Shown: positions 9,111 through 53,532 of the stretch, one piece after another | Layout: each line of letters starts with the position of its first letter | Position numbering within the stretch: the first letter of the stretch is position 1 | Assembly: GCA_006384855.1 (NCBI GenBank) | Contig: VCJN01002346.1 | Coordinates: forward strand, 124,001 to 188,000 | DNA from: Tetraselmis striata | Taxonomy: Eukaryota; Chlorophyta; Chlorodendrophyceae; Chlorodendrales; Chlorodendraceae | Reading direction: 5' to 3' | Length of the DNA: 64,000 nucleotides | The notes under the pieces: model-generated | What the model was told of the DNA's origin: nothing | Databases searched by the model: none | The model's input: the letters and a program-made list of their open reading frames with translations, nothing else | Program-made: the position numbers and the translations under genes

Positions 9111-9170
9111 ACCGGTACTTGATTTTCTAATTCTGGGGAACTGCCCTTTTTGTAATTCACACCGGTACTT
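9111..9170 (+). mobile_element. 40-bp LINE 3' tail insertion with perfect 10-bp target duplication
   Basis: The 40 bases at 9121-9160 match the last 40 bases (49203-49242) of the large LINE at 45.5-49.2 kb. They are bracketed by a perfect direct repeat ACCGGTACTT at 9111-9120 and 9161-9170. This is the signature of target-primed reverse transcription that stopped after 40 nt. The small size with a full duplication fixes the 3' terminus of the LINE family at ...GTAATTCAC. Confidence 0.85.
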
Positions 9171-9285
9171 GTAGGTGACTCGAATTCCGCGGGTCGGCGC
9201 GCCTCGAGTAGCGTTTTATGGTTTTGGGTTGTGTTAGGATTTGTCTGCCAGGCCCGGGCGTGCGGCGGGCGGGCTGGCATTGTCT

Positions 9286-9470
9286 GATCTAAACTAGTTT
9301 ATGGGGTTTCCATCCTTGACCTAACCGCTTTTCAGCTACAAGTGCTGCGCAGTGGTACGGGAGCTAGTAACTGTTGTTGCGCCCTTGTTGGGTGCAGCAC
9401 GAGTAGACATAAAAGCAGCCAGAACAGCTGAGCCTGCCATCTTCCAGTTTTCGCTGCGTTCCACGCAGCG
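9286..9470 (+). repeat. split direct repeat A1 (second copy A2 at 12181-12365)
   Basis: The two 185-bp copies start GATCTAAACTAGTTTATGGG and end in the small palindrome CGCTGCGTTCCACGCAGCG. A2 is followed by 93 nt of different sequence before B2. The terminal palindrome may fold into a hairpin during replication of the family. Confidence 0.9.
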
Positions 9471-9583
9471 ATGTAAAAACTGTCTCGTAACCCGTTGCGA
9501 GCAAGGTCACCCCAGGTTGTTCAAGACCACACCCGGCTCGCCATCCGAGTGTGATATTCTCGTCCGTACGTCCGTGCGTTACT

Positions 9584-10438
9584 ATGTCAGATGGAGAAGA
9601 ACCCGTCGTTGAGCCGACGCTCACGTCGTTGCAAGCAGATGTGCGTGCATTGGCTACAGCTGTGGCACAATTGACGGCTCGTGATCGCGCTGTTGATGGA
9701 GAAGGGGCACATGGCTCCGGCTCCGGGCAGCGCTTCGCGGGACAGCCGACAGGCAGCGGGGGAGCCGCAGAGCGCCCCGACTTGCTAGAGCTAGCCCAGA
9801 GCGGCCGTGTCGGAGCAAAATCCGTGAGTGCCGAGGATGATTACCTCGCGGTGCCAGAGCTACTGCAGAGAGCAGAGTCTGGTTACGAGGCCGTTCGACC
9901 GGTCAGCCGAGTGCCTGGACTTTTCCCGTTGAGCACCGACCTAACGAACGAGTACCTCAAGCAGGATGACCGGCGTCTGCCGGCCCAGGAGGAGTACTTG
10001 TGGATGTCGTGTTTCGGGGCTCACATGGCCGCCCTTTTCGTGGCGCTCGACGAGCTGCTACCTTACGTCCCCACCACTAACCAGGACTTCACCCCCTACC
10101 TCGCGAGAGCTCGGAATCACGCCGAGGCCATCGACAAGGCGTTTCGTTTTCGTCTAGCCTTCCTGCGGAGGCTGAATGAGATCAAGCGTGTGCACGGTGA
10201 CCAAGGCGTTCTGGATGTGCTGCGAGCTCAGCATTTTCAGCCCGCTGCGGAGCATCTGGGTTCTGCGATTTTTGGGGACCTGATGAGAGACTACGAGCGT
10301 CGTGTCTTCGAGGCGACCGTTGCCAGCAGTGCCAAGGCGACCGCTACTTCTCGAGTAGCGGCTGCAGCTGCAGGTCGCGGGCGTGGGCGAGGACGTGGTG
10401 GTGGACGTGGACGCGGCCGCGAAGGTGAGCACGAATGA
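9584..10438 (+). CDS. Gag-like protein of the fossil YR element
   Basis: The frame from the ATG at 9584 encodes about 284 residues: an acidic N-terminus (MSDGEEPVVEP), a helical middle containing LWMSCFGAHMAALFVALDELLPY, and a C-terminal run of alternating Gly and Arg. A helical core followed by an Arg/Gly-rich tail is the usual form of nucleic-acid-binding Gag-like proteins in YR elements. Assignment rests on position and composition, not on a conserved motif. Confidence 0.65.
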   Translation: MSDGEEPVVEPTLTSLQADVRALATAVAQLTARDRAVDGEGAHGSGSGQRFAGQPTGSGGAAERPDLLELAQSGRVGAKSVSAEDDYLAVPELLQRAESGYEAVRPVSRVPGLFPLSTDLTNEYLKQDDRRLPAQEEYLWMSCFGAHMAALFVALDELLPYVPTTNQDFTPYLARARNHAEAIDKAFRFRLAFLRRLNEIKRVHGDQGVLDVLRAQHFQPAAEHLGSAIFGDLMRDYERRVFEATVASSAKATATSRVAAAAAGRGRGRGRGGGRGRGREGEHE

Positions 10439-10474
10439 TGGCGTGGGGCGCCGCTCGTCGGAGCTGCAGGAGCC

Positions 10475-12100
10475 TTGCGAGGCCACCTTTCGGTGACCGC
10501 CGCAAAACGCACCCTTGCAGCTCAACGGCGGGATGAGCGCCCTGTGTCAGGACCTGACCCCCCCACCTTACAGACTTCATTTAGACCTTCCTCGGTGCGG
10601 CGCTTCTTACAGCTACAGCCGAGTGCGGCTCAACCATCCGTACACCTGCACATGGCGGCTCAACCATCCGCCTTTCTTACAACCCCATCTCTGCGTTCGT
10701 CGGTTGTTACACTACGTGTTACAACCGGTTCGCAACGACCAAGTTTCGCGCGTGTACGTTACGCACGGGACAGGCGCTACGAGCGCGACGGGCGCGCGGG
10801 GCGGCCCTCTTACCTGAACCTAGCCCCGCAAACCCGTACTGAAGCTACTGCAAACCCGTCCAGCAACTACCGGCCAACCGCCGGGAACCTAACCGCTGCT
10901 GCCGAGTACTTTGCGAACAGTAGCCGTGCCAGTGGAACTCTGTCAGTAAAACGACGCACTTACGTAATCGACGAGCCCGCAGCTATCGCTCCATGGGCTG
11001 CGTCACTGCGATCTCGGCTGCAAGACGCTTTCGGCTCAGACGAGCTAGGCCAGCGGACGCTGGACCTGCTCTCCAGCTCCCTCAGCGCGCAAACCCTCAA
11101 GAGCTACGCCGGCAGACTGTCTCAGTTCGCTGAGTTCTGCCACGACTCCGAGAACATCAGCCCGCTGGAGGCGACTACTGCTACTGTTGTTCGGTACGTT
11201 GCCTGGATCGGGGAGCGAGGTCACATCGCAGCTAAGTCGCTGCAGCCCTACCTGTCTGCCATCAACACCTTCTTCGAGCTGCACAACCTCGTCCCGATCG
11301 CCAAGGACAGCCTACACCTCACTTCGGCAAGGCGTGGGTTAATGTTGCGGCAGCGCCGGCTGGACGCTGCCCCCTTGCGTGTCCCTCTGCCTGCGGATGT
11401 AGCTTACCGCTTCGTCTCAAAGGCCGAGCTAATTGTGTCTGCTCCTTATCCAGAGTCCCACCTCGACTACCGAGCCCTCTTGGCTTCGGTTGTCAACTTC
11501 CTGTTCTTTGCCAGGGGCCTTACTGGCGTCTCCTGTCGAGCGCAAGATGTACATGTCGACACCTACAACATCACCTTGCAGGTCTACCGCGAGAAGGGTC
11601 GCGCTGGCCGTCGGGGACCCGACGACCTGCGCGTACTGCTCCTTCCGGTGTCCGAGCACCCTCGAGTGGCACGACTCTTACGCTACTTCATCGACAACGT
11701 CCAGTCTGTCCCCCTGGTTACTGTTGGCTTGGCTGCCTCCAACTTCTGGGCTGTAAATGTGGCTGAGCAGTCAAAACCTTGGACTGCGGCTACGATGTCA
11801 GACTGGTTGTCTACAGCCGTCAACCTAGTCAACGCAGCCCCTCCTGCTGGCACTTCCTGGACTTCACACAGTCTGCGCAAGGGCGCAGCCTCTGCTGCAA
11901 ACGCCATCGGAGCGCCACTGTCCCACATCCGCTACCAAGGCGGTTGGGCCACTAACTCCGATGTCGTTTTGGACTACATCGACCCCAACGTTCTTCCTTC
12001 TCCTGGCGCGTGGTTCTTCTTTGGACACATCGCCCCCCTCCGCCACTTCCAAGTCCAACAGGACTCCGCAGCGGTGGCCTTCCCAGTGCCTCCTTCATGA
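10475..12100 (+). CDS. tyrosine recombinase of the fossil YR element
   Basis: The frame starts without an ATG shortly after the Gag-like frame. After a variable N-terminus it shows a SAM-like core-binding domain (LSAQTLKSYAGRLSQFAEFC ... YLSAINTFFELHNL) and a catalytic domain. The catalytic set is visible: Arg in FLFFARGLTG, HxxR in TSHSLRKGAA, a GGW block at the second His/Trp position, and the Tyr in VVLDYIDP. The enzyme family inserts circular cDNA by recombination. Related YR elements in green algae (Kangaroo, TOC3) also carry RT, which is missing here. Confidence 0.85.
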   Translation: MRGHLSVTAAKRTLAAQRRDERPVSGPDPPTLQTSFRPSSVRRFLQLQPSAAQPSVHLHMAAQPSAFLTTPSLRSSVVTLRVTTGSQRPSFARVRYARDRRYERDGRAGRPSYLNLAPQTRTEATANPSSNYRPTAGNLTAAAEYFANSSRASGTLSVKRRTYVIDEPAAIAPWAASLRSRLQDAFGSDELGQRTLDLLSSSLSAQTLKSYAGRLSQFAEFCHDSENISPLEATTATVVRYVAWIGERGHIAAKSLQPYLSAINTFFELHNLVPIAKDSLHLTSARRGLMLRQRRLDAAPLRVPLPADVAYRFVSKAELIVSAPYPESHLDYRALLASVVNFLFFARGLTGVSCRAQDVHVDTYNITLQVYREKGRAGRRGPDDLRVLLLPVSEHPRVARLLRYFIDNVQSVPLVTVGLAASNFWAVNVAEQSKPWTAATMSDWLSTAVNLVNAAPPAGTSWTSHSLRKGAASAANAIGAPLSHIRYQGGWATNSDVVLDYIDPNVLPSPGAWFFFGHIAPLRHFQVQQDSAAVAFPVPPS

Positions 12101-12153
12101 CTTGGCGCTACCCCTTCTCCGTCAATCCACCGCTCTCTACGTTCGCTCAAGAC

Positions 12154-12485
12154 TGGCAAAACCAGACTCAACTTTGAAATGATCTAAACTAGTTTATGGG
12201 GTTTCCATCCTTGACCTAACCGCTTTTCAGCTACAAGTGCTGCGCAGTGGTACGGGAGCTAGTAACTGTTGTTGCGCCCTTGTTGGGTGCAGCACGAGTA
12301 GACATAAAAGCAGCCAGAACAGCTGAGCCTGCCATCTTCCAGTTTTCGCTGCGTTCCACGCAGCGCCCCCCCTGACTCCGTTTTCCCTCCACGCTTTTCG
12401 CTAAACCTTCCTGCCAATTTCGGCTCTTGACCGTGTAAAACAGCCTGCGCGACCTTTTTGGCAAAACCAGACTCAACTTTGAAAT
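12154..12485 (+). repeat. B1-A2-B2 terminal block of the fossil YR element
   Basis: B1 (12154-12180) and B2 (12459-12485) share 27 bases that begin TGGCAAAACCAGACTCAACT. B1 abuts A2 exactly. The same arrangement, with a related B sequence, closes the older element at 5.6-5.9 kb. Confidence 0.85.
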
Positions 12486-12681
12486 CGACTTAAAAACAAG
12501 AAACGAGTAGTCGCTACCTGTACCTGGCACCTGGTAGCAAAACAATGCGGTACTAACGCAATTAATGTAATTGTGCTTTGATCCAAATTATTCTACCCGT
12601 ATTTCCGCGGTGAGGGGAACAACCGGGTACTGTCCGTACGAATACCGATCATTTGCTTTTCTAACTTTATGATTACTACAG

Positions 12682-20228: not shown

Positions 20229-21845
20229 CCCGTACCCCGTACCTCAAGCATCGTCGGCAGGTAGCGACAGCTGATGCAGCGACAAAGCAAGCGTTTTATG
20301 TCGTTGTCGCTACTTTTGTTGTCGGCGCCATCCTGCCGCAGTTCCGCCCCCGCCACGTCACTCTCGCGACAGCCCAGCCTAGCCGCCCTGCACCGGGGTC
20401 GTCTACCGTCGAGCCTGCTGACGAGGCCGCTGCCCGGAACGTTACAGGTCTAGAGCTCCCGGTCGCTGCCCCGCCGGCCAACGGCAACGCAGACGGGGCG
20501 GGACTCGGCCGGGATACCAAGCATCGAAAGCATCGTCGCCTAAGACGCCCCCCACTTGACAGCGCTAACATCAGGACCCAGGCGCAGTACGTACACGGGT
20601 TTGAACGAGCAGGCTACGTGCCTCTCACTCAGTCACCTCCGGAAACAGCATCTCCGACGCCAATCGCGGACCTGTCGGCTGATCAGCTTCGTGCCCGCGC
20701 GGCGGCTCTGGACGGGCAGCTGGAGAAGCAGCGCGAGGCGACGAGCCAGCTGCTCGATTATTGCGATAGTTTCCAGTTCGTGCTCGATGCCCGCGAGAGA
20801 CAGCTCGGAGGCCAGCGACGTGCGCTGTCAAGGCTTCACAGCAGTGGGGGCGCGGAGCTCGCTGCTGCTGAGCGTCGAGCTGACGAGGCGGAGGTGGCTG
20901 CGACTTTTTTACAGCAGCAGGTGGACGACCTATCCGGCAAGCTGGCGGACAGCGAGGCAGCAGCCACCGCTCGCGTGGCCGACCTCGCCAATGAGCTCAA
21001 GCAGGCGCGCGAGCTAAAGGCAGCGTCCGAGCGCCTGGCTCATGAGGTCACCGATGCAGGCGACGCTACCATGTCTGAGTCTCACCAGGTGGGTGCTCTC
21101 CCCCGTGCGCGTTGTTGAGCTGCGGAAGAAATCCATCAAATATTCAAATATAATATTCACTGGAATCATATAGCAGCCCCCCTTCCATACGTCTGCAATA
21201 GCTCAGACCTCACCCAGGGCCTATTTACAGCCCATACTAGTGGGCTATGAGGTTTGCTGCAATTTATAGTCCACCCGTCAAACAGGCGCGCGGCTGGCTG
21301 ACACCCAGCTGCTGCAGCAAATATTATCAGTCACAGCAAATCCTAGTTATATACCCCTGCTGGAACCATATAGCAGCCCCCCTTCCACACATCTGCAATA
21401 GTTCAGACCTCACCCAGGGCCTATTTACAGCCCATACTAGTGGGTTATGAGGTTTGCTGCGATTTATGGGTCAGCCGTCGAACAGGCGCGCGGCTGGCTG
21501 ACACCCAGCTGCTGCAGCAAATACTATCAGTCACTGCAAATCATAGTTATATACCCCTGCTGGAACCATATAGCAGCCCCCCTACCACACATGTGCAATA
21601 AGTCAGACCTCGCCCCGGGCATATTTACAGCCCATACTAGAATTGTTGTTATGCAGAATCCTGATGTGGTATTGAGTAACACTAAGGGCAAAGTTCATGG
21701 TGGTGTGCTGGAGAGCAAGCAGATTAATCGAGGACATTTGGCCAGCAACCAGCTGGAAAAGAAGCGCAAGTTTCAGCAGGACTGCTTGGGCTGGATGCAT
21801 GAGATCATGCGCAAGCATGATGAGAACTGTCCCCCAGCTCTTTAG
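20229..21845 (+). CDS. membrane-anchored coiled-coil protein, unknown function
   Basis: An open frame from about 20229 to 21088 encodes a hydrophobic segment (AFYVVVATFVVGAILPQF), a proline/basic linker with KHRKHRRLRRPP, and a heptad-rich region from about 20660 (LRARAAALDGQLEKQREATS ... LANELKQARELKAASERLAH). A consensus donor at 21089 and an acceptor ending at 21656 join in phase 0 to a last exon, 21657-21845, ending MRKHDENCPPAL. The order of one membrane span, a linker and a long coiled coil suggests a tethering or organelle-surface role, but no named family is recognised. The true start is unresolved: the first ATG in this frame is 20618, yet the frame is open far upstream. A TGTAA motif 13 nt after the stop could be the poly(A) signal. 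Confidence 0.6.
21158..21640. repeat. 200-bp tandem repeat, about 2.4 copies, inside an intron
   Basis: Landmarks recur at exactly 200-bp spacing: GGAAYCATATAGCAGCCCCC at 21162, 21362 and 21562, and TATGAGGTTTGCTGC at 21246 and 21446. Copies differ by only a few bases. The array fills most of the 568-nt intron 21089-21656 of the coiled-coil gene. Confidence 0.9.
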
Positions 21846-26745: not shown

Positions 26746-29700
26746 ATGCGGGCGAAAGCGGGGCGTCGTGGCGCCATGGTGGTGGCGCTGCTAGCGATGC
26801 TGGCGCTGCATGTCGCGCGGGCAGGGGCGTCCAGCGTGGGTCAAAGCCAGCGTAACCTTAGAGGCTACGGCTGGGTTCCCTCACCTGACACACAGTGCGC
26901 TGGCCCCGCCTTCCCAACCCTCCTGCTCACTCCGTTGAGAACACTCACCGCCCCGGTTCTCCTCCGCCACTCCAAGTATAACCAATGCCGGCCAGTCGCG
27001 CCTGTGTGCAACGACCTGTGTCGCCTGTTGTTGCTGCATTTTGTACTGTCATTCGTTTCGGGTTTAACCAACACCGCGCCGCCTGAGCCCAACCCCCTCT
27101 TGGCGGGCGCAGGGTAACGATGGACACCTGCATGCGGCTGTGCGGGCAGATCATCGCAGAGCAGCAGGCGGCGGTCACGGACTTCCTGATGCGGGGCGAT
27201 GAGGTCCTGGTAGCGGCCAGGGAGGGGGAGCCCGGGGCTGCGACCCCACCTGCGGTGGACGCGGGGTCGGGCGAGGAGGCTGTGATGCAGCGGGGCTGGG
27301 AGGCGCCATCCTGGAGCACCACGCCGCCGGCACAGGGGACAGCGGCGTCTGACGAGAGCGAGGGCGAGCTGCTGGACATGCTGACTGTCATGATGGAAGG
27401 GCAGGATGAGCTGGTGGCAGCAGCGCCATCGCCAGGCGGCGGTGATGATGTGTTGCCCTGGTCAATTGACGAGGAGGATGTGGGGCCGGCATTTGCGCCT
27501 GCTCCGGCGCCTGACAGCGGCAGCGTGGAGCTGTGGGAAGAGGACGGCATCTACCATGACAACGAGGAGTGGCCCCTGGAGGAGGCAGACATAGCAGCAG
27601 GGCCAGCTCCAACGCCGGACAGCGATGACCACGATCCGGAGGCAGCGGCACCAGCTCCGGTGTCTGGCAGCAATGACTACGATCTGCGCGCAGCAGTAGG
27701 CACCACGATCGGCGCTGCCTTGACAACGGCTCCCCCTACCACCACCAAGGCTGACTCGACAACGGCGATGCCAACGTCCACACCAGCGGCCTCTCCCACA
27801 CAGGCTGCCACGACAACGGAGCTGCCAACAACTACAGCAGCACCCTTAAACACAGAGACGGCCATGACTACAGCGGTGCCGACAACCACCCAGGCAGCCA
27901 ACACTACCTGGACTGCCGCAACAACGGCGTTGTCAGCAACCTCCCTAGCGGCCACAACCAAACAGACTGCCACGCCAACCTCGTCGCCAACAACCAGCCC
28001 AGTGGCCACAACCACCGAGACTGCCACGACCACAGCGATGCCGACAACCACCCAGGCGGCCACAACAACGGAGCTGCTATTGACCACCCCACCTGCAGCC
28101 ACAACCATTGAGACGGCCACAACCACAGCGGTGCCGACAGCCACCCAGGCGGCCACAACTACATTGCTGCCAATGACCACCACCCCAGCAGCTACAACCA
28201 CTGAGGCTGCCACATCCACAGCGGTGCCGACAACCACCCAGGCAGCTACAACAACATCGCTGCCAATGACCACCCCAGCGGCCACAACCACTGAGGCTGC
28301 CACATCCACAGCGGTGCCGACAGCCACCCAGACGGCCACAACAACGTCGCCGCCAATGACCACCCCAGCGGCCACACCCACTGAGACTGCCTCGACCACA
28401 GCGGTGCCGACAACCACCCAGGCGGCCACAACAACATCGCTGCCAACAACCACCCCAGCGGCCACAACCACTGAGGCTGCCACATCCACAGCGGTGCCGA
28501 CAGCCACCCAGACGGCCACAACAACGTCGCCGCCAATGACCACCACCCCAGCGGCCACACCCACTGAGACTGCCTCGACCACAGCGGTGCCGACAACCAC
28601 CCAGGCGGCCACAACAACATTGCTGCCAATGACCACCACCCCAGCAGCTACACCCACTGAGGCTGCCACGACTGCAGCGGTGCCGACAACCACCCAGGCG
28701 GCCACAACAACATCTCTGCCAACAACCACCCCAGCAGCTACAACCACTGAGGCTGCGACATCCACAGCGGTGCCGACTATCAGCGCTCAGGCGCCTATGG
28801 CAGCGGAGCTGGCCACAACCGCCGCCCCAGCATCCGCAACCACTGAGGCTGCCACAACCACAGCGGTGCCGTCAACCATCCAGGCGGCTGCAACAGCATT
28901 GCCGCCAACCACCCCAGCGGCCGCAACCACTGAGGCCGCCACAACCGCAGCGGTGCCGACAACCACCCAGGCGGCCACAACAACATCGCTGCCAACCACC
29001 ACCCCCGCAGCTACAACCGCAGCGGTGCCGACAGCCACCCAGACGGCCACAACAACATCGCCGCCAACCACCACCCCAGCAGCTACAACCACTGAGGCTG
29101 CCACCACCACAGCGGTGCCGACTATCAGCGCTCAGGCGCCCATGGCAGCGGAGCTGCTCACGGAATCCCCGGATACCTCCACCACCCAGGCGCCCACCAC
29201 CACTCCGCTGCCCACAACCACCGATGCGCCCACCGCGAACGATGCCCCCATGACAACATCACTGCCCACAAACGCCAAACCAGCCACCCCCACTCCCACT
29301 GCCACTCCCACACATGCGCCGATTCCCACAATGACTCCGGCGGTCACCACTGCCACCCGGGTCGCCACCACCACAGTGCTGCCGACAACTACCCACGATG
29401 CCACAACAACTGCGGAGCTCCTCCATGCCGCAGCAGCTGCGCCAACGTCGAGCGCCGAGAGCTACAGCCCGGCCCACGCAGGTGATGGAGCCGGAGCCCC
29501 GTTGGCGACCGCCTCTGCACCCAGCAACAGCGAGGAGGAGGCGCTTGACCTCATGCTCAAGGCGTGGGAGGAGGGCTCATTGGGGGACGACGAGATCGAG
29601 GACCTGATGGAGGAGCTGGCGGCGTCTGATGGCGATGGCTTTGTGCTCCCTGCCTGGGCAAGAGGGTCGCACTTCGCGGAGGAGGATGCAGCTGATGAGG

Positions 29701-32700
29701 AAGCTCTCGCAGCGGTGGCTCCCTCGCCTGACGCGGACGGGAATGAGCGAGAGGACTACGGAGGGTCTGAGCTCTGGGCCGGAGCTCCGCTGGCGGGTGA
29801 TGACTTCCTTGACAGCGAGGAGGAAGAGGCCATGCCAACGGGCTGGGAGGAGCAGGATGGGGAGGACACGTGGGAAGGTGCCCCGATGGCTGAGGAGGAC
29901 GGCGATCTGGACGTTGCCTCTGAGCTTTCGGCGGGCGCTCCCTTGGCGGGTGATGACTTCCTTGACGGTGAGGAGGGGGAGGCCATGCCACCGGGCTGGG
30001 AGGAGGAGGTGGAGTGGGAGGGCACACCCATGGCTGAGGAGGAGGAGGATCTGGACGTTGCGTCTGAGATGTGGGTGGGCGCTCCCTTGGCGGGTGATGA
30101 CTTCCTTGACGGTGAGGAGGGGGAGGCCATGCCACCGGGCTGGGAGGAGGAGGTGGAGTGGGAGGGCACACCCATGGCTGAGGAGGAAGAGGATCTGGAC
30201 GTTCCCTCTGAGATGTGGGTGGGCGCTCCCTTGGCGGATGTTGACTTCCTAGACAGCGAGGAGGGGGAGGCCATGCCACCGGGCGCGGAGGAGAAGGAGG
30301 AGTGGGAAGGTGCACCCATGGCTGAGGAGGAGGAGGATCTGGACGTTGCCTCCGAGCTGTGGGCGGGCGCTCCCTTGGCGAGTGCTGACTTCCTTGACAG
30401 CGAGGAGGGGGAGGCCATGCCACCGGGCTGGGAGGAGGAGGCGGAGTGGGAGGGCACACCGATGGCTGAGGAGGACGGCGATCTGGACGTTGCCTCTGAG
30501 CTGTGGGCGGGTGCTCCCTTGGCGGGTGACGACTTCCTTGACAGCGAGGAGGGGGAGGCCATGCCACCGGGCTGGGAGGAGGAGGTGGAGTGGGAGGGCA
30601 CACCCATGGCTGAGGAGGACGGCGATCTGGACCTCGGTTCTGAGCTGTGGGCGGGCGCGCCGCTGGCGCATGATGACTTCTTTGCTGGCGGGGAGGGGGA
30701 GGCCATGACACCAGGCTGGGAGGAGGAGGAGTGGGAGTGGGAGTGGGAGGGCACACCGATGGCTGAGGAGGATGGGACGCCCGAGCCGACGCCGGGGCAG
30801 ACAACAACCCCAGCGCCGATGCCGCCCGCGGCGATGCCAGCTGCGACAGAGGCGGCGACCCCTGGCGCGGAGGCCACCACCACCCCGGCGGCAACTACGT
30901 CTCCCGCCGCCACTGTCATGCCTGAAGGCAGCGAGGAGTTGCTGGCCGGCGTTTCAACAAACACCCCTGTGCCGACATATACCTCACAAGAGCCGCGTGC
31001 CCATCCAGAAGAGGCCACGCCCAGTGCTGCCACAACTTCCGTCGATGTTGCGGACCCCCGAGGCCAGGACCCGGTGACGACAGCGCTGCCGACGACTACC
31101 CCAACGGCCACAACCACGCAGACTGGCACAACAGCCGAGCTGCCGGTGACCACCCCAGCTGCTACCACCACCTACGTCAACACCAGGGCGATGCCGACGA
31201 CCACCCCAGCCGCCGCCGCCACCCAAGTCGACACCACGGCGATGCCAGCGACGACCTCAGCGGCTACCACCACGTGGACCGACACGACGACAGTGCCGGT
31301 GACAACAACTCCAGCGGCCACCACCACCCAGGCGCCCACGACAACGCAGGTGCCAACAACCAGCCCAGCAGCCGCAAGCACTGACACTGCCACAACAATC
31401 GAGCTGCCGACAGCGACCCCGAGCGTCACCACAACCCAGGCTGCCACCATGATCTTGACGCCAACCACCACCCTAGCGGCCACTACCACCCAGACACCTG
31501 TGGCGACATCACTGCCGACAACCACCCAACCAGCGACCCCCATCTCCCCTGTTACTCCCACGGCTGCAGCCCTTCCCACGACGACACCATTGGGCACCAC
31601 CATGTCGTTGCCTACAACTACCCAGGCTGCCATCACCACCGCAATTCCCCCAACTACCCAGGCGGCTACAACAACAGCGTCACCAACTGCAACGGCGACC
31701 GCGGAGGCAGCGACCACCGCCAGCTCGGCAACGCTCACAACTAGCTCGGAGCCAACAACAACTGCCACGCCAAGTTTCACAACGCTGATACCCGCCACTA
31801 CCGCGGCGCCGACACCTGTGGCTACTACCACCTCGGGGGCGACAAGCACCCCAACAGCCACACCTGTCCCCACCATCATCGTTGACCTTGACACGCCGGT
31901 TGGGATCAGTACCGATTCAGCCACTGCGACGCCACTCGACGCATCCACCCTCTCGCTCAGCTTCACATTGCCGCAGCTAGATATCTCGCAGTTCGCCGAC
32001 GCCGCCTTCCAGGTGGAATTCGAGCGCGCAGCGATGGAGAATATTTCCGCCGCCCTGTTCGAGGCGGCGGGCAGCGGCACGACCGCGACGCAGTCGGTCC
32101 CGGCCCGCTTCTCTTATGTCGCGGGAAGCGTGCGCGTGGGCGCCGACGTGAGCGTCCGGGGTGAGCTGGCCGCTGCCGCTGAGGCTATTATGGCTGAGGG
32201 CGCCGAGGGCTTCTTTGACAACGGGTTCGAGGCCACGTACGGGCCGATCGACGACATCTCAGCCGAGTGGACGACCCCTGGAACTGGTTTCGAGGGTGCA
32301 ACTACGCCGTCGGCCAACACCACGCGCGAAGAGCCGTCGCCGAACCTGGGTGCCGAAGCTGTGCCGCCGAGCGAGGGCTCTGGTCCCATTAAGCGCCCGG
32401 GTTCGGCTTTCGCAGTCCAGCCGCGCGTCGAGTTTGTGGCAGAGTTTGATGCCGCCGAGCTCGCGCGGCGCGGGGGCAGTGTAGCGGCGCTGCGCGAGGC
32501 ACTGCCCCTATCGATGCCGCCCGTCCCCGCCGGCGCGACGGTTATCGCGTCGTCGTTGCCAGCGACCACCGACTCAGAGGTTGCCTTCAAGGTGAGCATC
32601 GATCTGACGGGCGCTGCCGAGCCGGAGGACGCGATGGAGCTGCTTGTCGGGTCGCTGCTGTTCAACCCACAGGCGCTGCTCGACGAGGCTTTCGTCGAAG

Positions 32701-34559
32701 CCTTCGGCGAACCGACGCTGCGCTCCGTGGCAGTCAGCGGCGGAGAGCCCCCGGCACTCAGCGTCCCTCCCTCACCGCCTCCCTCCGTCGAGGACGCGAT
32801 GCGCGTGCTGGTACAGTTCGCGCTGGTATCGCCGTGGGGCGACAACGTCCCGAGTGCGGGCGAGCTGCTCGCGATCCAGGCGGCGCTGGACGAAGCGGTG
32901 ACAGTCATCCTGGCGCGCGTGGCTGCCCCGAGCGCGCCGCCACACGTCGAGGCGCGCCTAACTGGCGCCGAGCTGAGCGACGCGGCCCTGCACCTTGACG
33001 TGGGCATCTTGTTCCCGCGGCCGGGCACTGCGGGCGCGGGCGCGTATTCGCGCCGGCTGGCGGCGGAGCTGGTGGAGGCACTGTGGCTGCCGGGCGTGCT
33101 GCGGGCGGAGCTGGCGGCCGCCGGGCAGAGCGAGCTGTCTACACTGTCGGCCAAGCCTCGCGTGGCGCTCGTGCCGGCCAGCCAGCCGCTCGCAAGCACA
33201 ATCCCGGCCTTCAGGCTGACGCGCCCCGGAGCGGATGACACCCCGCTGCGCGACCCAGACGTGCCTTGGACGGGTCTCACCGCAGCTGTCCGCTTCTCGC
33301 TGCTGCTCTCTGACATCGACGCCGTCGACGAAGTGGAACTTCAGCGCGAGGTGTCGGCCGCCGTGGCCGAGATGTCGGGCTCGACGGCCGCGACGACGGC
33401 GCTGAACGTGACGATGCAGCCCAGCGGCGGGGCCGTGGCGTTGGACGGTCGCGCCACCTTTGGCGACCCGTCAGCCACAGAGGAGCAGGGTCCCGCCGCG
33501 CGCCTCTTCCTCGCACTCGCCGCCGCGCAGGCGTCAAACAGCACCCAACCGCTGGGCGTCGCCTTTGGCGTGGCTTACGGGCCCGCGCTGGTGGTGAACG
33601 CTGGCCTGGACGCAGAGATGGCTGGCCGCTTGGGTAGCTCGGCGGCCGCTGCTGCCAACCCTCCGCCCGCTGGAGAAATGCTGGAGCGTGGGGTGGTGGA
33701 GCCCGAAGGCCAGCAACCGATGGAGCCCATCACCGGCACCGGGTACAGCACCAGCAACACCGGGCAAACAGTGGCGGTGGCGCTCGCGGCTGTCGCGGGG
33801 GCGGCGCTGCTCATCGGCGTGGCGTTTTTCAGCGTGCGGTCGCACCGAGCACGTTCGCGCAGCACCCCAGCCGACATTACTGGCCCCGGGAACCTGTACG
33901 GCGCCGAGGAGGGAAGGGGTGGCATCGGCGCCTTTATGCCGCCAGAGGACATCCCGCCCGTATCGGCCGAGAGCAGCGGGGAGGTGGGGCAGTTTCAGGA
34001 TCCCGGGCTGCCCATTCACGCGGCGGCGCTGCCTCGGCAGAACTTCCGGCGCGAGTTTTACGGACCGCCCGGCGTGCTCTACAACGAATCAGACGAGGAC
34101 GGCGCGCGGTCCGCCACTCCGTTCGATAACCACTTTACGGCGGCCCAGCAGCAGCAGTACCAGCCAGGACTGGCGCCTAATGTGCCGCACGGCGGGGGCG
34201 TCGCCGCGATGGCCGGCATGGCGCGCCCGCCCGCCTACACGCCGCCGCCGTACCGACGCCCGTCGCACGGCTTCAAGAGCCCGCCGCTGAACCGGCAGGC
34301 GGCCGCCGGCACATACTCGTCCACTCGTGCCGCGGGCTATATGCCGCAGTCGTCGGCCGACAATCCCATGGGCGCGGTGTCGCCCCCGCGGTCACGGCAT
34401 CCCTCGATGGGGTCGACCCAGTATCGCAGCGCGGATACACTCGCGCTGCCGCAGTTGCAAATGGGCAGGACGGCGACCCGCGCCTCCGATCCCCTCACGT
34501 TCGTCCCGTTACGAACCAAATATGGCCTGGGCCGATCGGCCACGGAGCAGAACCAGTAG
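26746..34559 (+). CDS. giant mucin-like type I membrane protein
   Basis: An exon at 26746-26894 encodes a signal peptide (MRAKAGRRGAMVVALLAMLA, then LHVARAGA). A donor at 26895 and an acceptor ending at 27112 join it in frame to one huge exon, 27113-34559. Numbering from the ATG at 27120, the protein shows: an acidic stretch (to ~198); a Thr/Pro/Ala/Ser domain (~199-770) of mucin type, rich in TTTxAATTT and AVPTTTQA; seven acidic ~48-residue repeats (~882-1218); a second Thr-rich domain (~1221-1585); about four related globular units (~1586-2165); one membrane span (~2218-2240, VAVALAAVAGAALLIGVAFF); and a 240-residue cytoplasmic tail with PPAY and PPPY motifs that could bind WW domains. Expected location is the cell surface, with a heavily O-glycosylated ectodomain. 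The function (adhesion, mating, wall or sensing) cannot be told from sequence. Confidence 0.8.
27715..29420 (+). repeat. Thr-rich mucin-type repeat domain 1 (coding)
   Basis: Imperfect repeats built on ACN codons encode units such as AATTTEAATSTAVPTTTQ, with a longer period of about 40-45 residues between AVPT(T/A)TQ blocks. Reverse-strand frames over this stretch (VVVAAGVVV-type) are shadows of the biased codons. Confidence 0.85.
29764..30775 (+). repeat. seven acidic repeats of about 48 residues (coding)
   Basis: Each unit reads approximately SELWAGAPLAGDDFLDSEEG followed by EAMPPGWEEEVEWEGTPMAE and a short acidic link. Spacing is about 141-152 nt. Copies are highly similar at DNA level, implying recent expansion or gene conversion. 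The conserved Trp and Pro positions within an otherwise Glu/Asp-rich unit suggest a folded or metal-binding motif rather than plain disorder. Confidence 0.85.
30780..31860 (+). repeat. Thr-rich mucin-type repeat domain 2 (coding)
   Basis: A second Thr/Pro/Ala/Ser-rich block (for example TTPAAAATQVDTTAMPATTS) follows the acidic repeats and leads into the globular units near 31880. Its repeats are less regular than in domain 1. Confidence 0.8.
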
Positions 34560-45519: not shown

Positions 45520-48500
45520 ACCAGTACTGCCAATACTGGTACGACGGGCGCGGTACCCTACACGACTGGTGCGACCCTACACGACTGGTACCCTACCCTG
45601 AATACTGGTGCGACGGGCGCGGCAGGCTACACGACAGCGGGCCGGCGCGGCGGGGCGTAGCACCGGCAGCGGCTTGGACAGTCGCCGACGCGCTTTCAGT
45701 CGCTGGCGTCGCCGCGGGCGCCGCGTGGGCGCCGAGGATTGACGCCGCAGCCAGGTCGCTCCAGCCCGCCCGCGTCAGGCACCACCCGGCCGATGTGCTG
45801 GCTTTCACCGAGGTCGCCGCCGCGTGGCTAGCCAAGGCGCGCGCCGTGTTGGCCGAGCGGCACCGCCGTCGGGGGGCGCGCCGCGCCGGTGGAGCTGGAC
45901 AATCGTCGGTGCTGCCGTCGCCCGCACTGCCGTCCGTCGCTGCGTTCCGGGGCGTCGCAGCGCCCCCGGTTGTTGCCCCCACGCCGCCAGAGGGCCCCGA
46001 GCCGAGGCGGACGGCGGCGGCTGCAAGCCTTGGCGTGGCGCTTCCGCGCTTTCGCGGAGAGGCGCATGACCGAACTCGTGCGCTCATGGGACGACGCGCG
46101 CACTGAGGCGTTCTACGCCGGACATGCCCGCCAGCGTCGGACGGACGCCGATCTCTTTGCGGCGCTGCTCGTGGGCACCGCGGACACCGTTGTGGCGTTG
46201 GTGGAGGACGGAGAGCTCTCCCGAGCGGCGGGCCGACTATCTTCTAAGGGTATGGGCGACTTGTCCGATCCTGCTATCCTCGCCCAGCTGCGCGACAAGC
46301 ACCCGCCCCGTACCCACCCGATCCCAGACGCCGCGTATGACATTCCGGTGGATGAGGCCGCCCTGACGGTGGACATGCGCGTGCCGTACCAGCAACTCAA
46401 GCAGCACGTGGCGGCGGGGCCCTCAGGCATGCGCAACGAGTATCTCCGCTGCTTGGTGGGCGAATACGCCCCGGCGTCCGGGCCCGCGGCAGTCCGCGCC
46501 ATGTCGGAGGTTGCCTCCATGTACCTCCAAGGCCGCCTGCCCGGGTGGTTCAACCGGCTCTTCGCCTCTGCTAGGCTCGTGGCACCTGTCAAGAAGCTAG
46601 GCGAGGGGAGGGCCCCGGACGTGCGGCCTGTAGCAGTCGGGGAGGCGGAGCGGCGCGCAGCGGAGCGGGCAGTGGTTGACAACATGAAGGAGGCATACGT
46701 GTCGGTGCTCGCTCCATCTCAGCTCGGCGTTGGCATTCCCGCGGGCGACTCTGTGCTCATCCACGGCGTCCGGCTCATCGCCGAGAAGCTTGGCCCACGT
46801 GCCGTCATCGTCCACACAGACCTTCGCAACGCTTACAACGAAGCATGGCGCCGCACCATCATTGCTCTCCACTACACCCTGTCATCCCTGCGCTCCTAGC
46901 CTCCCTCTCCACGGACTCGTATCTGGTCGTGGACGACCGGTCCGCCCCTCTGCGGTCGGAGGACGGCGTGCAACAGGGCGCACCTTTGGCCACGACTTCC
47001 TTTTGCGTCGCGATTCACCCCGAGGTGCAGCAGTGTGATACCACGTTGGAGGTCAATGACGGGGCGGCGCGCTTCAACGCCGACGATGGAATTTTGGTGG
47101 GCCTTCCGGAGCACGTTTGGCCGGCTCTTCACGCCTTCCGCACGTCCATCAAGGCGTCCGTGGGGCTTGAGGTGCGCTTCGACAAGATTCAGGCGTACAG
47201 CGCAGACATGGAGGCGGCGCGGCGTGAGGCTCCGGCCGACATCGAGTGGCCAGAGCTAGATGGCCATCACGGCATCGCGGTCCTCAACGTGCCGCTCGGA
47301 TCGCCAGAGTATGTGCAGGCGTACATGCGCGGCAAGGCGGAGGAGCTACGAGAGGAGGTGGACGCTAGCCTGAGCAAGCTTCTGTCTGCCAAGCCCAGCC
47401 GTCGGTACACCCACGCCTTGCATCACCACGCATGGGCCCTGCTCAAGCATTGCATGCAACACAAGGCGGGGTATTGGCTCCGCAATTGTCTTCCGTCCGA
47501 GGTGGAGGCCTTTGCGGAGGCGGTGGATGCCACCATCCTCGCGGCGGTCGAACGGGTGCTAGGGGTCTCTTTTGATCCCTCCACGTACGGCACCGACACC
47601 AATCCGGTGGTCACCGATTTCTTGGCGGAGCTTTTGCACGACCCCGACCCCATGGCAGCGGAGGTGGCTACCTTGAGCGAGGATGCAGTGGCCAGGGCGC
47701 GCAGCAGGCTTCACCTCCCCACTCGATTGAAGGGAGCTGGCATCCGCCGCATGGCTACCGTTCGTGATGCCGCCTTCATCGGCTGCATGAACGCCATCCT
47801 CCCAAGGTTCCTGACTAGGAACTCCGGCACCAACACCCCCACCCCTGGTTTCTTCGACCCACAGCTCGGGTCCGTACTTGGCCGAGGCAGCTTCAACGCA
47901 AATTCTTCCGCCCGCCAGTATGACCACTTCCTCAACGATGCTCATGGGTCGGACAGCTACGCCGCGGAGATGCGCGAGGCGTGGGGCCGCCTCCAAGCGG
48001 CTACTGCTGGCCATCTCGGCGACGCAGATGCACGCCAGATGGAGCGGGAAGTGGAGGCTGCGTCGGGCTCGCAAAAGGAGCTGACGGCATTTCTAGACCA
48101 GGCCAACAACTCCCGGCTTCGAAATGAGGTGTGCGCTCTCCCTGCCACATGTAGGGAACGGATCTTGTTCAACCAGCTCGACGCGGCGTCAGGCATGTGG
48201 ACAGTGGCCATCCCCACCGCGCGGACAGCCATGACTCCGCATGAGCTGCGAGAGGTCGCTGCCGGGTACTTCTTTCTGCCTAGCCCGTGCTTGGCCCCGG
48301 TGGTTGGGTGCCAGATTATTCTGCCCTCGACGGAGCACAACCCCGTCATTGTTGATCTATACGGCGACGCGCTCATGAACCTCCCGGCGCCTTGAGACGC
48401 TCACTGGCGTGTACAGCACGACGCTATCGCAGATGCCTTCCGCGATCACTGTGTTCACGACCTAGGTATCGCGGTACGGCGGGAGGTGGATGACTTGTTC

Positions 48501-49259
48501 CAGCAGGCAGTGCCTCTCGGCAACACCGTACCCCAGGATGAACTCAAGGACCTAGTGCCGGACGCAGAGCTCTCCCTTCCGGCGTTCAACGTCGTGACCG
48601 GGAGCTATGATCCCCGGAGCTTGAAGTCCACGCTGCTAGAGTTCAAGACTATGCGGTACGGGGTCAAGTACACTTCGGTGCCCCGGGCCACAGCTGTGGA
48701 TCGGTTTGAGCGCTCCCTGTTGGGCGACATACAACGGGGGTTGGCTGCGCGGGACGCGGCGTGGCACAACACAGAGCCCGGACAGAAGGGTCCTCTTCGA
48801 GACATCCTGGATATGTCGGAGTACACGGGCATGGTCTTCGGCACAGTGGGTGAGGTGAGCAAGGGGGTGCACCGCACAGTGCGTGGTATCGCATGCTTGG
48901 CTGCGGACCAGGGTGCCCTCTCATCGCGGGGCACTCGGTGCATCACCCGGGCTCACCAGGAGGCCTTGCTCGCAAGAGATTTCCTCGGGGTCCTGAGCTT
49001 GGTGGCCGCTCGAGAGCGTGCTCGCTGCCTCATCAGACGGCGCAGATTCGTCTCCCATCCCGTTGCTGAAGCTGCACAGCACGTCCGAGGATCACCTACA
49101 CACACACGTGCTCGCGTGGCCCGGACTCTGAACCGTGTGCGCATCACTCATCCATCCCGCCTTATGCGGGATGCGGGCCGCTTTTAGGCGGCTTGCTGTG
49201 TTGATTTTCTAATTCTGGGGAACTGCCCTTTTTGTAATTCACACCAGTACTGCCAATAC
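45520..49259 (+). mobile_element. near-complete LINE with restriction-like endonuclease and 17-bp target duplication
   Basis: The direct repeat ACCAGTACTGCCAATAC stands at 45520-45536 and 49243-49259 and brackets the element (45537-49242, about 3.7 kb). The 5' leader has two related ~68-bp units (TGGTRCGACGGGCGCGG near 45537 and 45605). One long coding region follows, then a 55-bp 3' end that closes ...TTTTTGTAATTCAC without poly(A). The exact 3' end is confirmed by the 40-bp insertion at 9121-9160. The layout (single ORF, C-terminal nuclease, no poly(A) tail) is that of early-branching R2/CRE/NeSL-like LINEs, which usually have specific targets. Confidence 0.85.
45795..49187 (+). pseudogene. 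LINE protein: reverse transcriptase plus PD-(D/E)XK nuclease
   Basis: The RT starts around 46080 with AAGPSGMRNEYLRCL (RT0-type), then LVAPVKKLGEG, DVRPVAVGEAERRAAERAVV, HTDLRNAYNEAWRRT, GVQQGAPLATTSFCVAIHPE and the catalytic FNADDG (about 47072-47089; Phe-Asn-Ala-Asp-Asp in place of the usual YADD). The thumb and linker run to 48395. The nuclease carries VPDAEL (about 48555) and LLEFK (about 48633), the PD...ExK pair, then MVFGTVGEVSKGVH. Two defects are seen. The frame shifts once at about 46866-46882, between the AYNEAWRRT block and VIPALLASL. One in-frame TGA stands at 48393-48395, after which the same frame continues with DAHWRVQHDAIADAFRDH. A third shift near the poorly conserved N-terminus is possible. 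So few defects imply a young copy. Confidence 0.8.
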
Positions 49260-49311
49260 CGTTACTACATGCCCTTTTGTAGCTCTGAAGATACCGTGGC
49301 CGGGCGAATTA

Positions 49312-50518
49312 GTGGCACACCCTCCGTCAGCAGCGACTGTTTCCCTCCCAGAATCGCTGCCAGGTTCTACTGCTCCGCCCTCGGGTACAGGTTCGGGTGC
49401 GACCTCCGATGATCAACCCACGACCATGGTTGTCCAACGCCACCTCAGCCGTGCGATTCGCTTGCGTGACTTCGTGGCCCTCGATCTCAACTTCCAACGT
49501 ACTGGTGCAGCGGCCTCGCGACTTGATACCCTGCGCCTGTACAGCGCGTGCGGGCCGGGCTCCCTATCGTTTTTTCAGTCGGATCACGAGTCCGCCCGCA
49601 AGATTCCCCATGTTGCATATTCGGCCGCCGCTGCGCGGGTACTGGGCCTTTGCCCGCGCGGAGCTTTCGCGCTTGTCACTTGCCCTGGCCCAACGAGCGT
49701 GTGGTATTGATCCCTTATGGCTTCGCTCTACGGATGGCTCGAACCGGAGCGCTACAGATTTCATCGTGGATCATCTACCCATATGCCCCGTAGCGAACTA
49801 CAAGCACCGCATGCATACCGCTTTGAAGAATCTGTGGGCATCTGTGGCAATTGATGCGGGGGCGGTGCTTGACCGGGACCGCTCGGGAGCCGGCGACTTG
49901 ACCCTTGAGACGAGTGGGCTGCGCCCAACGGACCGCTCGCGGCCGTCGGACCTGACGCTGGCGGGGTGGGGGGGGGGGGGGGGGGGGGGGGCGGCGTGCG
50001 ATTACATGATCGACTTCGCGTGCGTGTCCTCCACGACCCCCACTTGGAGCAACGACCCCCGCTGGTGCATCCCGGGAATCGCGGCGACCGAGGCGGAGCA
50101 TGCTAAGTTGGCAACGGACCGGGCGTCTTCCGCCCCAGTGGAGGGTGTTCACCGGTACTACCCTTTTGTGGTTGAGGACCGCGGCCGTCTCGGGAAGTCC
50201 GCTTTGACGGTGGTCTACATCTTCGCGGTGCTGTTGGCTGTGCGCAACTTCCTTGGCGGTCCTTCCGCCCCGACCTCTTGCTTTCTTCGTGGTCAATCCG
50301 TTCAGGCACTTCGAAACTTTGTCGCCAGCCAACCTGCTGAGTTCCGCCGTCACCTGTCGCTCACACGGCGGGGGCTGTTGCAGCGGGTCTCGGCTTGCGT
50401 GCATGGTACCCTGGGCGGCATTCTCTCTGCCGGTGTACATATGGCCAAGTCTGATGCGTGTGCTCGTGCCCACTCTGCGTCTTGTCATGTTACTGCTTCC
50501 ACCCCGCAGTCGCTGTAG
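49312..50518 (+). mobile_element. degraded LINE 3' part of another family
   Basis: Frames here show the tail of an RLE-type LINE protein: NYKHRMHTALKNLWASVAID, SRPSDLTLAGW then ACDYMIDFACVSSTTPTW (nuclease core), IAATEAEHAKLATDRASSAP, and HRYYPFVVEDRGRLGKSALT with a hydrophobic helix. A run of G at 49968-49991 has expanded inside the nuclease region, in frame as Gly codons. The frame 49397-50518 is open, but the part before 49700 needs frame changes. The 3' flank includes ATGTAATTCAT near 50580, faintly like the 3' end of the neighbouring LINE family. Confidence 0.6.
49968..49991. repeat. poly-G run inside LINE coding remains
   Basis: Twenty-four G in a row (flanked by GGGGT and GCGGCG) read in frame as Gly within the nuclease domain of the LINE fragment. 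Confidence 0.9.
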
Positions 50519-51204
50519 AGGACCTTTCTGATTGCGTTTTATTTTGGTGATTTCCGATATCGCCTTCTGCTGCTAGCTCATGTAATTCATAAGCAGGGAG
50601 AAACACACTACTTCATGGCTACGAACGATAGCACCCGCCCTACCGTACCATCCGCGCTATTTGCAGAAATGAATAATTGATGATAAGAGATGACCTCGTA
50701 TTGAAACTCATACAGGGTACAGGTAGCTGTTAAGTGTATGCTAGAGGTTGGGCTGCCCCTGCTATAATTCACTGGTGCGCGCGGTGAGCGTGCACCGCGC
50801 GCAGGCTTCCGCCGGCCCCTTGTGCCATCCCTGGACCTGCCGTGCCGCCCCTTGCATGTCTGCCTCTACCCCTGTTTCGCTTTGGTGCGCACAGTACTCC
50901 TTCGATAACCTTCTCTCACCCTGATGTCTATCATGATAATGTCCGTGCCCTTGGTTGGATTCGGCTCATGTTTAATTTCTTTGTGCCTTAGGCCCTACAT
51001 AGTGCCACTTTGTGCTACACAGGCCCCGTCGTATAGGCGTTTTTTTAACTTGTAGCGGACCCTATGCGGGTACTGTAGTTGGTCAGGGGCGGGCCCTGAT
51101 GCTGGGTAGTAAAGACGGCTTGTCAAGGCGAGAAATTTATTCAATTGTAACAAATTTAAAATTTAATCAAAATTTACCAGTGTTAGTGCCCCGCCGGCCA
51201 CGGC
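50519..51204. other. spacer between LINE fragment and inverted-repeat element
   Basis: Mixed composition with AT-rich stretches near 51130-51180; no coding or repeat signal beyond the LINE 3' flank. Confidence 0.4.
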
Positions 51205-52020
51205 TTAGGCCTATATGACACGGGACGTGCTCTACCGGTAGACCGCTCTACCGCCGTTATTTCTACACGCACAGCGCGCCACGTCGCAAAAAGTGCGATT
51301 CGGCCGTAGAGCGGTCACCCCTAGAGCGGTAGACCGGTCTAGCATTTCGGCGGTAGGGTAGTGGCATCGGTAGCTACCGATGCCACCCCCCGCCCTACCG
51401 CTCTACCGCTCTATTTTGAACGCGGCACCCTGTCGCTGGGGAATCTATTCATCGCGCTACCCCTCGCCCGCCGCTCCATGTAGTCCCACCGAAACTTCGC
51501 GCGGGCGGTACACGGATTCCACGCCTCACGGCCATGGCTGCGCGCCCGGAATCGCCCCGCAAGGCGCCACGGGCGGCCAGTCAAGCGGCCAGTCAAGGTG
51601 TATGGATCCTTTCGAGCGCCGTGTGCGCCGGGCGCCTTGCCGTTGTCCCAGCGGCACGTCTCGCCATCCGGTGTTTCTACCGGAAGGGCATCGCCCCGCC
51701 GCTGGCCTCGCTGACCCATCTCCATCTGGATCTCATGTCGCGGGCGGACAGCGCTCAACCGACTTGAGCCCAGGAGACCGAGCAGCAAGTGCGGCTGGTC
51801 CTACGATGCTCGGTAGGGCGGTAGCGGCTAGCTTGACCGGTAGAGCTGTTCCCGTGTCATACCGTTCTGAGGGCTGAAAAAGGAATTGAAAAAGTGAAAA
51901 TACTACATGGGGATTGGCTAGTCGCCATTTGCTTTTTGCGACGTGGCGCGCTTAGCGTGTAGAAATTACGGCGGTAAAGCGGTCTACTGGTAGAGCATGT
52001 CCCGTGTCATACAGGCCTTA
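51205..52020. mobile_element. PIF/Harbinger-like non-autonomous element with 86-bp terminal inverted repeats
   Basis: The element spans 51208-52017 (810 bp). Its first 86 bases (51208-51293, beginning GGCCTATATGACACGGGAC) are nearly the reverse complement of its last 86 (51932-52017). It is flanked by TTA on both sides (51205-51207 and 52018-52020), matching the TWA target duplication of PIF/Harbinger elements, and the GGCC... ends fit Tourist-like elements. Subterminal regions repeat GTAGAGCGG/CCGCTCTAC several times, as transposase-binding arrays do. No transposase is encoded; the interior frames are not protein-like. Confidence 0.85.
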
Positions 52021-52670
52021 TTCGGATCGGTTTGACCGTTTGAGCACACCATGTGTTGGGCGACATGCAGCGGGGCCGGGCAGTCCGGGATGCGGCGTGG
52101 CACAGCACGGAGCCGGGACAACATGGCCCATGCTTCGAGACATCATGGATATCAGTTCTATATCATATTTCGGAGTTCACGGGTGCGGTCTTCGGCACAG
52201 TGGGTGAGGTGAGCAAGGGGGTGCGCCGCACTACGGTAGCAGCTTGTTGTCGCGTGCCTGGCCGCGGATCCGGGCGCCCTCTTATCGCCAGGAACTCGGT
52301 GCGTCTTCCGAGCTCATCAGGGTGCCTTGCTTGCGGGAGCTTTCATCGGGGTGCTGAGCTTGGTGGTAGCTCAAGGACGTGCACGGTGCCTCATTAAGTG
52401 CGGTAGTTTCGTCCGACATCTCGTTGCCGAAGTTGCAAAGCGCTCCCAAGGATCACCCTCGCCTACGCCTGCACGGGTGGCCCGGGCTCTGCTTAGCGCG
52501 CATCCTTCAGCCGTCGTGCCTCGCGCGGGTTGCAGGCTGCTTTTAATATAAAAATAAGCCGCTTCTAATATAAAACTAGGTGGCGGCTTTTGGTGTTGAT
52601 CTCCTAGTCATGCTTATCAGCTTATGGCCGTGGAATTGTTGCTACCGCTTTGTATAATTCACACGAGTAC
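52021..52670 (+). mobile_element. 5'-truncated copy of the 45.5-kb LINE family
   Basis: From about 52025 the sequence follows 48697-49242 of the large LINE (for example GGATCGGTTTGA, CACAGTGGGTGAGGTGAGCA and the GGGGTGC that follows). It carries the end of the nuclease domain with many changes, frameshifts and stops. Its 3' end, ...TGTATAATTCAC at 52662, is followed by ACGAGTACTG, again the target motif. The copy is clearly older than the 45.5-kb one. The inverted-repeat element lies directly at its 5' side. Confidence 0.75.
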
Positions 52671-53532
52671 TGTATCCCCACCATCCATTACCACCACCAC
52701 CACTGTTGAGACTACCACCACCACCGCCATCACTGAGGACCACACCACAGGACAGTACGAGGTACTGTCTCAACAACCACTACCACCTTCAGGAATAGCC
52801 GCTGACCCCTGTCAGTGTTACACGAGTACAGGTGTGAATTTCACGAGTACTGGTCTGGGGGATACCGGGTACGGGGTACTACCCACGGCCGATCCCGCCA
52901 GCAGTACCGCCGCCCGTGGTCGCGTCGTGCCGCCGCGGCCCGCCGGCCCAGGCGCGGCGGCGCTACTCAGCAACGCAGCTACTCAGCAACGGGTACTCAG
53001 AGCGCGCAGCAATAGTGAACATCGCGCTTGTGAGGGTGTGTCCGACACACTCATCACGGAAACACTGTACATCAGAGGGAAATTGCTCGGAATAGTAACG
53101 ACGCTTGATTTACGTCTCCACGCGGGTAGAGGTGCCGTCAGTCCGCTGTATAATTTGGCCAGGATTCGACGCATGCCCTGTATTGAGCGATTAACGTTAA
53201 GTCGGAGCCGCCCGATGCTTCCTCTAAGGAAACCCGAGATTTTTTATTCTGCAGGTACTCACCCGGCCAGATAAAAAGTGAGTCTACATCAGTCCGAATA
53301 CTTCCGTCCTCGCGAGGTTGTTGTGGGGACTGACTGGCTATGCCGAGCGACAGACGAGCAGAACTCGGGCGGGGGCCCGCGCGGCGAGGACCTATTCCTT
53401 ACGGGCAGTGGGCCGTCACACCGTGTCGTCAAGCAAGCGCACGGATCCACACCATCTTTGCAGAGAGGCCCCCATCATCGGGCAGCTTTCCGACATCTGA
53501 CCTACGCAGCTAAAGACGCGGCCATCGTGACA
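52671..53532. other. spacer with low-complexity ACC/GTAC repeats
   Basis: A frame at 52624-53274 is open but is built from CCACCA-type microsatellite and GTACT-rich sequence and has no domain. It is probably not a gene. The last 250 bases are likely the promoter and 5' UTR of the kelch gene. Confidence 0.45.

Follow-up and report, generated by a model that had tools for sequence, protein, structure and literature searches.

Long interspersed elements (LINEs) that carry a restriction-like endonuclease are placed in the CRE, R2, R4, NeSL and HERO clades; most are specific for a multicopy gene, while some families insert into microsatellites or show no specificity (PMC4640811, PMC3636483). These elements are thought to persist by sheltering in genes of high copy number or in simple repeats; a palindrome dispersed in excess through the host would be a third refuge. 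Here we describe a LINE family in 64,000 nucleotides of the green alga Tetraselmis striata (contig VCJN01002346.1, positions 124,001 to 188,000 of the forward strand), a stretch that we call the window and number from its first letter; all site evidence comes from this one 64-kb window. Our reading, to which we give a probability of roughly two in three, is that this family, most likely one of the LINEs with a restriction-like endonuclease, initiates target-primed reverse transcription within a short palindrome, TACNNGTA (core GTACCGGTAC), that is dispersed through the window.

The closest precedent is EhLINE1 of Entamoeba, a LINE of the restriction-like class with a short dispersed target word: its endonuclease is reported to nick preferentially at 5'-GTATT-3', and its short interspersed partner EhSINE1 has an intergenic location and target duplications (PMC3118788). 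The EhLINE1 word is asymmetric and 5 nt long, whereas the present one is a palindrome of 8-10 nt that is in excess in the surrounding sequence. Dong, HERO and Togen families resemble the present element in its probable class and in having a short repetitive target (PMC4640811, PMC3636483); however, their targets are tandem repeats, and ours are mostly dispersed single palindromes. In R2 and R4, which insert into ribosomal DNA (rDNA), and in CRE, which inserts into the spliced leader, the reverse transcriptase is followed by a C-terminal nuclease, the plan presumed here too, and R4 and CRE make duplications (PMC3636483), but each of these uses a single site in a multicopy gene. The crocodilian families of Utopia also have dispersed junctions with a common short motif, and their site preference has loosened; in contrast to the present case, the motif derives from the U2 small nuclear RNA gene and duplications are rarely recognisable (PMC4640811). 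A single multicopy-gene target of the rDNA, small nuclear RNA or spliced-leader kind is not seen here: the flanks of our three copies are mutually dissimilar, and the window holds no Rfam family and no transfer RNA gene (ARAGORN).

A short palindrome in strong dispersed excess is also found in cyanobacteria, as HIP1, the highly iterated palindromes. These differ in being prokaryotic and in their link to methyltransferases, and the abstract of that work does not mention them as targets of LINEs (PMC4390886). Among the titles and abstract openings of open papers that were listed, none described a LINE that targets the present palindrome, which is no proof of its being unpublished. A palindromic word in excess around the LINE that uses it as a target would be a new variant. 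An insertion enzyme that naturally reads a short palindrome would, in addition, offer a point of comparison for R2-based gene insertion.

Junctions and target-site duplications

Three copies of the family, all on the forward strand, can be read directly, and in each the LINE 3' end TAATTCAC is joined without a gap to a form of one motif: ACCGGTACT at 9161 in copy A, ACCAGTACT at 49243 in copy B, and ACGAGTACT at 52663 in copy C. Longer readings of the same junctions are TAATTCAC|ACCGGTACTTG, TAATTCAC|ACCAGTACTG and TAATTCAC|ACGAGTACTG, respectively. Copy B is the longest (3706 bp, 45537-49242) and stands between two copies of the 17-bp duplication ACCAGTACTGCCAATAC (45520-45536 and 49243-49259); the copy opens with ~100 bp of GTAC-rich, repetitive sequence whose origin is unclear. 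Copy A consists of a 42-nt 3' tail identical to that of copy B (9119-9160), set between two copies of the 11-bp duplication ACCGGTACTTG (9111-9121, preceded by GGT, and 9161-9171). The first three bases of this tail (TTG) overlap the upstream duplication, and depending on how they are assigned the tail measures 39-42 nt and starts at 9119 or 9122. The preliminary description of this DNA had taken 9111-9170 as the insertion; an insertion is indeed present, but only the tail within it is element. Copy C is a diverged 3' piece (52021-52662, with the start kept from that description) that aligns with copy B over 52038-52545 at 73.5% DNA identity (510 columns, blastn of the window against itself) and is followed by the flank ACGAGTACTG (52663-52672). 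A target duplication was looked for at copy C and not found; its 5' end abuts an 812-bp inverted-repeat element (51207-52018) whose 87-bp inverted repeats are 92% alike and which holds TACCGGTA and TACTGGTA.

The joint junction pattern ATTCACACSRGTACT has eight matches in the window at up to three mismatches—three exact, one with a single mismatch (candidate D, below), and four with three. Across 100 shuffles of the window, such matches averaged 3.27 and never exceeded 7. The three exact matches, together with the direct reading of A, B and C, bear out the earlier proposal of one family with three insertions and a shared junction motif. The window has 17 occurrences of the shorter motif ACSNGTACT over the 128,000 positions of both strands, or 1.3e-4 each, and from this rate the chance of three such junctions is ~2e-12; the figure is naive, as the motif was read off the same junctions and the 17 occurrences include insertion sites.

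Two of the insertions had been described as having target duplications that begin at the motif, and this holds for A (11 bp) and B (17 bp). Since both duplications start exactly at the motif, which is then found upstream of the element too, the motif belongs to the target: the sequence shared by the junctions of A, B and C is target DNA and not element. In A and B the upstream duplication copy stands after GGT, and the rebuilt empty sites are GGT|ACCGGTACTTGTAGG for A and GGT|ACCAGTACTGCCAATACCG for B. Both read GGT|ACC(G/A)GTACT and both contain TACNNGTA at offset -1 from the junction, in the single register T|ACCRGTA; what had been called a near-palindromic motif with a GTAC core can accordingly be sharpened to T|ACNNGTA within GTACCGGTAC. 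Outside the element, no similarity between the flanks was found (blastn of the window against itself; blastp of frames), so the loci are not one duplicated locus. Homology of the contexts of B and C was considered separately and rejected, as the same searches returned nothing. If the flanks of copy B are joined, a single frame stays open for 247 codons; each flank is open by itself, and the joined frame therefore shows phase only, which has a chance of one in three.

A 3'-anchored tail scan of the window used the B and C tails as queries and 40 one-strand order-2 simulations as the null. Copy A scored 36 against a null maximum of 13; the two query copies match themselves at 36 as well, which leaves A as the sole non-query among these. 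A probable fourth insertion, of ~8 nt if real, is candidate D on the minus strand (52854-52821). It comprises a 13-bp 5' duplication, ACCAGTACTCGTG (52842-52854), the 8-nt insert AAATTCAC (52834-52841), whose last 7 nt match the LINE 3' end, and the 3' duplication ACCTGTACTCGTG (52821-52833), identical to the 5' copy at 12/13 positions; the junction reads AATTCAC|ACCTGTACT. Among the 86 ACNNGTAC sites on both strands, the bases directly upstream match TAATTCAC at 8/8 positions in A, B and C, at 7/8 in D, and at 6/8 in the next best site. Candidate D lies in a Thr/Ser/Gly-coding stretch, where it may instead reflect a repeat at the protein level.

Coding capacity and class of the element

B (3706 nt), C (no more than 642 nt) and A (42 nt) all end in TAATTCAC, and two of the three are flanked by duplications. 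With no long terminal repeats (LTRs), a fixed 3' end, 5' truncation and target duplications, the element can be identified with confidence as a LINE, or non-LTR retrotransposon. In copy B its open reading frame (ORF) is broken into three forward-strand pieces. The first (45889-46899) encodes the N-terminal part and the reverse-transcriptase motifs up to HTDLRNAYNE; the second (46845-48395) encodes the rest of the reverse transcriptase (GVQQGAPL, NADDG) and a linker, and ends at an in-frame TGA; the third (48396-49184), in the same frame as the second, encodes the C-terminal domain, a presumed restriction-like endonuclease. The reverse-transcriptase motifs were assigned by eye. The reverse transcriptase is supported by a match of 46615-47201 to Pfam RVT_1 when the protein is read across the frame change, below the curated cut-off; the ORF pieces taken separately give no meaningful Pfam match. 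The C-terminal domain carries PD-X25-EFK (48558-48647), a candidate nuclease core, as well as PD-X15-D and KTMRY, all of them motif matches made without a chance control. Judging from its plan and these motifs, the element is most likely a LINE of the restriction-like-endonuclease type. No other Pfam family, such as an N-terminal apurinic endonuclease, was found in the N-terminal piece (E<=1) or in the read-through (E<=10), in a scan that excluded 45537-45888 (352 bases), and PDB sequence searches gave no relevant match.

Searches for relatives confirmed none. In protein scans of viral_contigs, the confirmed relatives numbered 0 of 1 matched stretch for the middle ORF, 0 of 14 for the C-terminal alignment A1 and 0 of 1 for the N-terminal ORF; the 20-nt LINE tail had no match in viral_contigs and two in genome_contigs, both in bacterial metagenome-assembled genomes with flanks unlike the element. 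Our assumption that the C-terminal domain resembles algal and dinoflagellate LINE proteins prompted the search pattern TEPGQxGPL, which confirmed no relative: it returned 10 stretches, none matching the element (tblastn, E<=1). A further pattern, AATTCACACSNGTACT, was met in 23 stretches of viral_contigs; the sequence upstream of these matches the tail at 11-17 of 36 positions, seven of which are fixed by the pattern, and the matches were judged to be chance.

A dispersed palindrome as the target

The spacers of the window had been thought GTAC-rich, an impression that we reject, as GTAC itself is near expectation (253 seen vs 233.6 expected). What exceeds expectation, three to five times, is the spaced palindrome: ACNNGTAC occurs 86 times vs 28 expected on both strands, and TACNNGTA (core GTACCGGTAC) 39 times on one strand vs 8.2 expected from trinucleotides. 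The spacing is specific—TAC/GTA pairs at gaps of 0-12 number 7, 9, 39, 16, 11, 15, 12, 12, 13, 18, 16, 11 and 13, so that gaps other than 2 range from 7 to 18 with a mean of 12.8—and among 64 inverted trinucleotide pairs, each taken at 13 gaps, TAC-NN-GTA stands out most. With low-complexity parts masked, TACCGGTA ranks first among gapped 4+4 words, followed by TACC-N-GTAC and GTAC-N-GGTA. Removing the four TACNNGTA sites tied to A and B and the two in the inverted-repeat element leaves 33, and with the insertions excised the both-strand counts are 35 vs 6.7 for ACCNGTAC and 54 vs 6.9 for TACSNGTA. There is little flank signal around the TACNNGTA sites beyond GTACNNGTAC, and the palindrome therefore looks like a bare word and not like part of a longer repeat. 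All 39 sites lie outside the three long ORFs (8.45 expected there, simulation maximum 18); composition predicts only 0.10, 0.34 and 0.17 sites inside these ORFs, so the zero count within them shows no avoidance of genes.

The word is dispersed over the whole window (for example at 9110, 24748, 25942 and 37212), and it is a lead in itself, its three- to fivefold excess having no explanation here. The palindrome ACGAGTACTCGT stands right beside three interstitial AAACCCT telomere-like units with an A run (58714-58761), which lie between GTACG direct repeats.

Target-primed reverse transcription accounts for the fixed 3' end, the variable 5' end and the duplications that run from the junction. 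For the present family, we propose that the LINE protein would nick the bottom strand opposite T|ACC within TACNNGTA. The exposed ...GGT-3' end would prime copying of the RNA 3' end (...TAATTCAC), and a top-strand cut 11-17 nt downstream would give duplications that begin with the motif. Truncation at the 5' end can be extreme: A keeps 42 nt of element, C no more than 642, and D probably 8. Additionally, the 5' duplication retains the whole GGTACCRGTACT site, such that an insertion would not consume its target. The junctions, the two duplications, the common motif and the excess of the palindrome in this window are observed, and the nuclease, the order of nicking and a preference for the word in living cells are features that we infer.

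Several observations weigh against this mechanism or the class on which it draws. The RVT_1 match of the read-through has an E of 1.4e-4 and 22.1 bits, vs a Pfam curated cut-off of 29.6 bits; copy B is broken by a single frame change and a single in-frame TGA; the protein has another PD-type match at a different place, which shows the weakness of the PD motif; and no nuclease family match was found for the C-terminal domain in Pfam. Restriction-like LINEs have a CCHC knuckle before the nuclease, spaced CX2-3CX7-8HX4C (PMC5678591); a knuckle of the published spacing was not found in the broken copy B with a loosened pattern, which in a decayed copy is weak evidence. An AlphaFold model of the 780-residue C-terminal two thirds was unusable, with a mean pLDDT (predicted local distance difference test) of 36.3. 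As for the sites, they are few—two complete with both sides known, one half site with the 3' side only, and one probable—and the motif was defined from the same junctions on which it is tested, while copy C cannot be scored for TACNNGTA. Duplication length varies (11, 17, 12-13), and the duplication of copy B can also be read as 26 bp with 3 mismatches. The rebuilt site of candidate D, GACCAGTA, begins GACC, not TACC, and does not contain TACNNGTA; the tail scan has no power for a tail as short as that of D. Lastly, a possible further tail lies at 50763-50772, and the sequence after it is TGGTGCGC, which is not the motif; its tail-scan score is 12, shared by three other places, and ~0.95 places with a score of 12 or higher are expected on two strands. 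We treat this tail as chance, its score being near the null, and the excess as slight, not nil.

Three other explanations were considered. Period-6 spacing of GTAC is raised in the window (GTAC..GTAC 18 vs 2.1, both strands), and B and D lie in Gly/Ser/Thr-rich open frames with several GTAC (TSTANT, TSTGVNFTSTG). The target could then be a degenerate hexamer repeat, (GGTACN)n, often coding Gly-Thr or Thr-Ser-Thr, and the element a microsatellite-targeting LINE like Dong and some HERO or Togen families, of a kind known in the restriction-like class (PMC4640811, PMC3636483). We regard this as unlikely: few of the 39 TACNNGTA sites overlap or adjoin another, their flanks carry little signal, and the site of copy A is outside any array found by the tandem-repeat search.

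The palindrome also resembles the site of a dimeric protein, and the same word (ATACCGGTAT, GTACCGGTA) has been reported upstream of oomycete genes (PMC10031896). The LINE endonuclease might itself have little specificity and be tethered by a host protein bound at the palindrome, a proposal that we consider improbable. Tethered integration usually gives scattered positions, whereas all four junctions fall at one exact base. In sequence alone, recognition of the word by the enzyme and by a tethering host protein would look alike. Chance or misreading—with the motif as part of the element 3' end, or copies with a common ancestral flank and A and D as slippage products—is already disfavoured and very improbable, for although the copies are few, A and D very short, and D in a stretch that repeats at the protein level too, A and B carry the motif on the upstream side of the element too, the variable bases differ between copies, no other flank similarity is present and the naive joint chance is minute.

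Returning to target-primed insertion at the palindrome, a wider claim can be put forward only tentatively: a restriction-like LINE may have adopted a highly iterated eukaryotic palindrome, GTACCGGTAC, as its landing site. The word has more dispersed sites than there are insertions, may serve in host regulation, and would stay usable after each insertion. If true, insertions reduced to as little as 8 nt would scatter motif-flanked micro-insertions through the spacers.

Other features of the window

A tyrosine-recombinase element (9285-12365) has 186-bp direct repeats, 100% identical (9285-9470 and 12180-12365), around two ORFs, one Gly/Arg-rich at its end and the other with Phage_int_SAM_1 (E 5.7e-8); neither ORF has a Pfam reverse transcriptase, which is odd for DIRS-like elements. 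An open frame of 2490 codons with Thr-rich repeats spans 27087-34556, and long antisense frames are open over the same repeats. Host genes include one for a Kelch-repeat protein (54815-55426) and a GTPase, of which the C-terminal exon (MMR_HSR1_Xtn, TGS) lies at 62520-63152; for a host gene here we presume the name DRG. The tandem-repeat search also returned a 200-bp unit repeated 2.4 times with 92% matches (21160-21640) and eight runs of 27-39 C or G (2375, 13675, 36572, 38865, 49963, 54691, 56256 and 57132); the gene at 62 kb also has shorter C runs between its exons.

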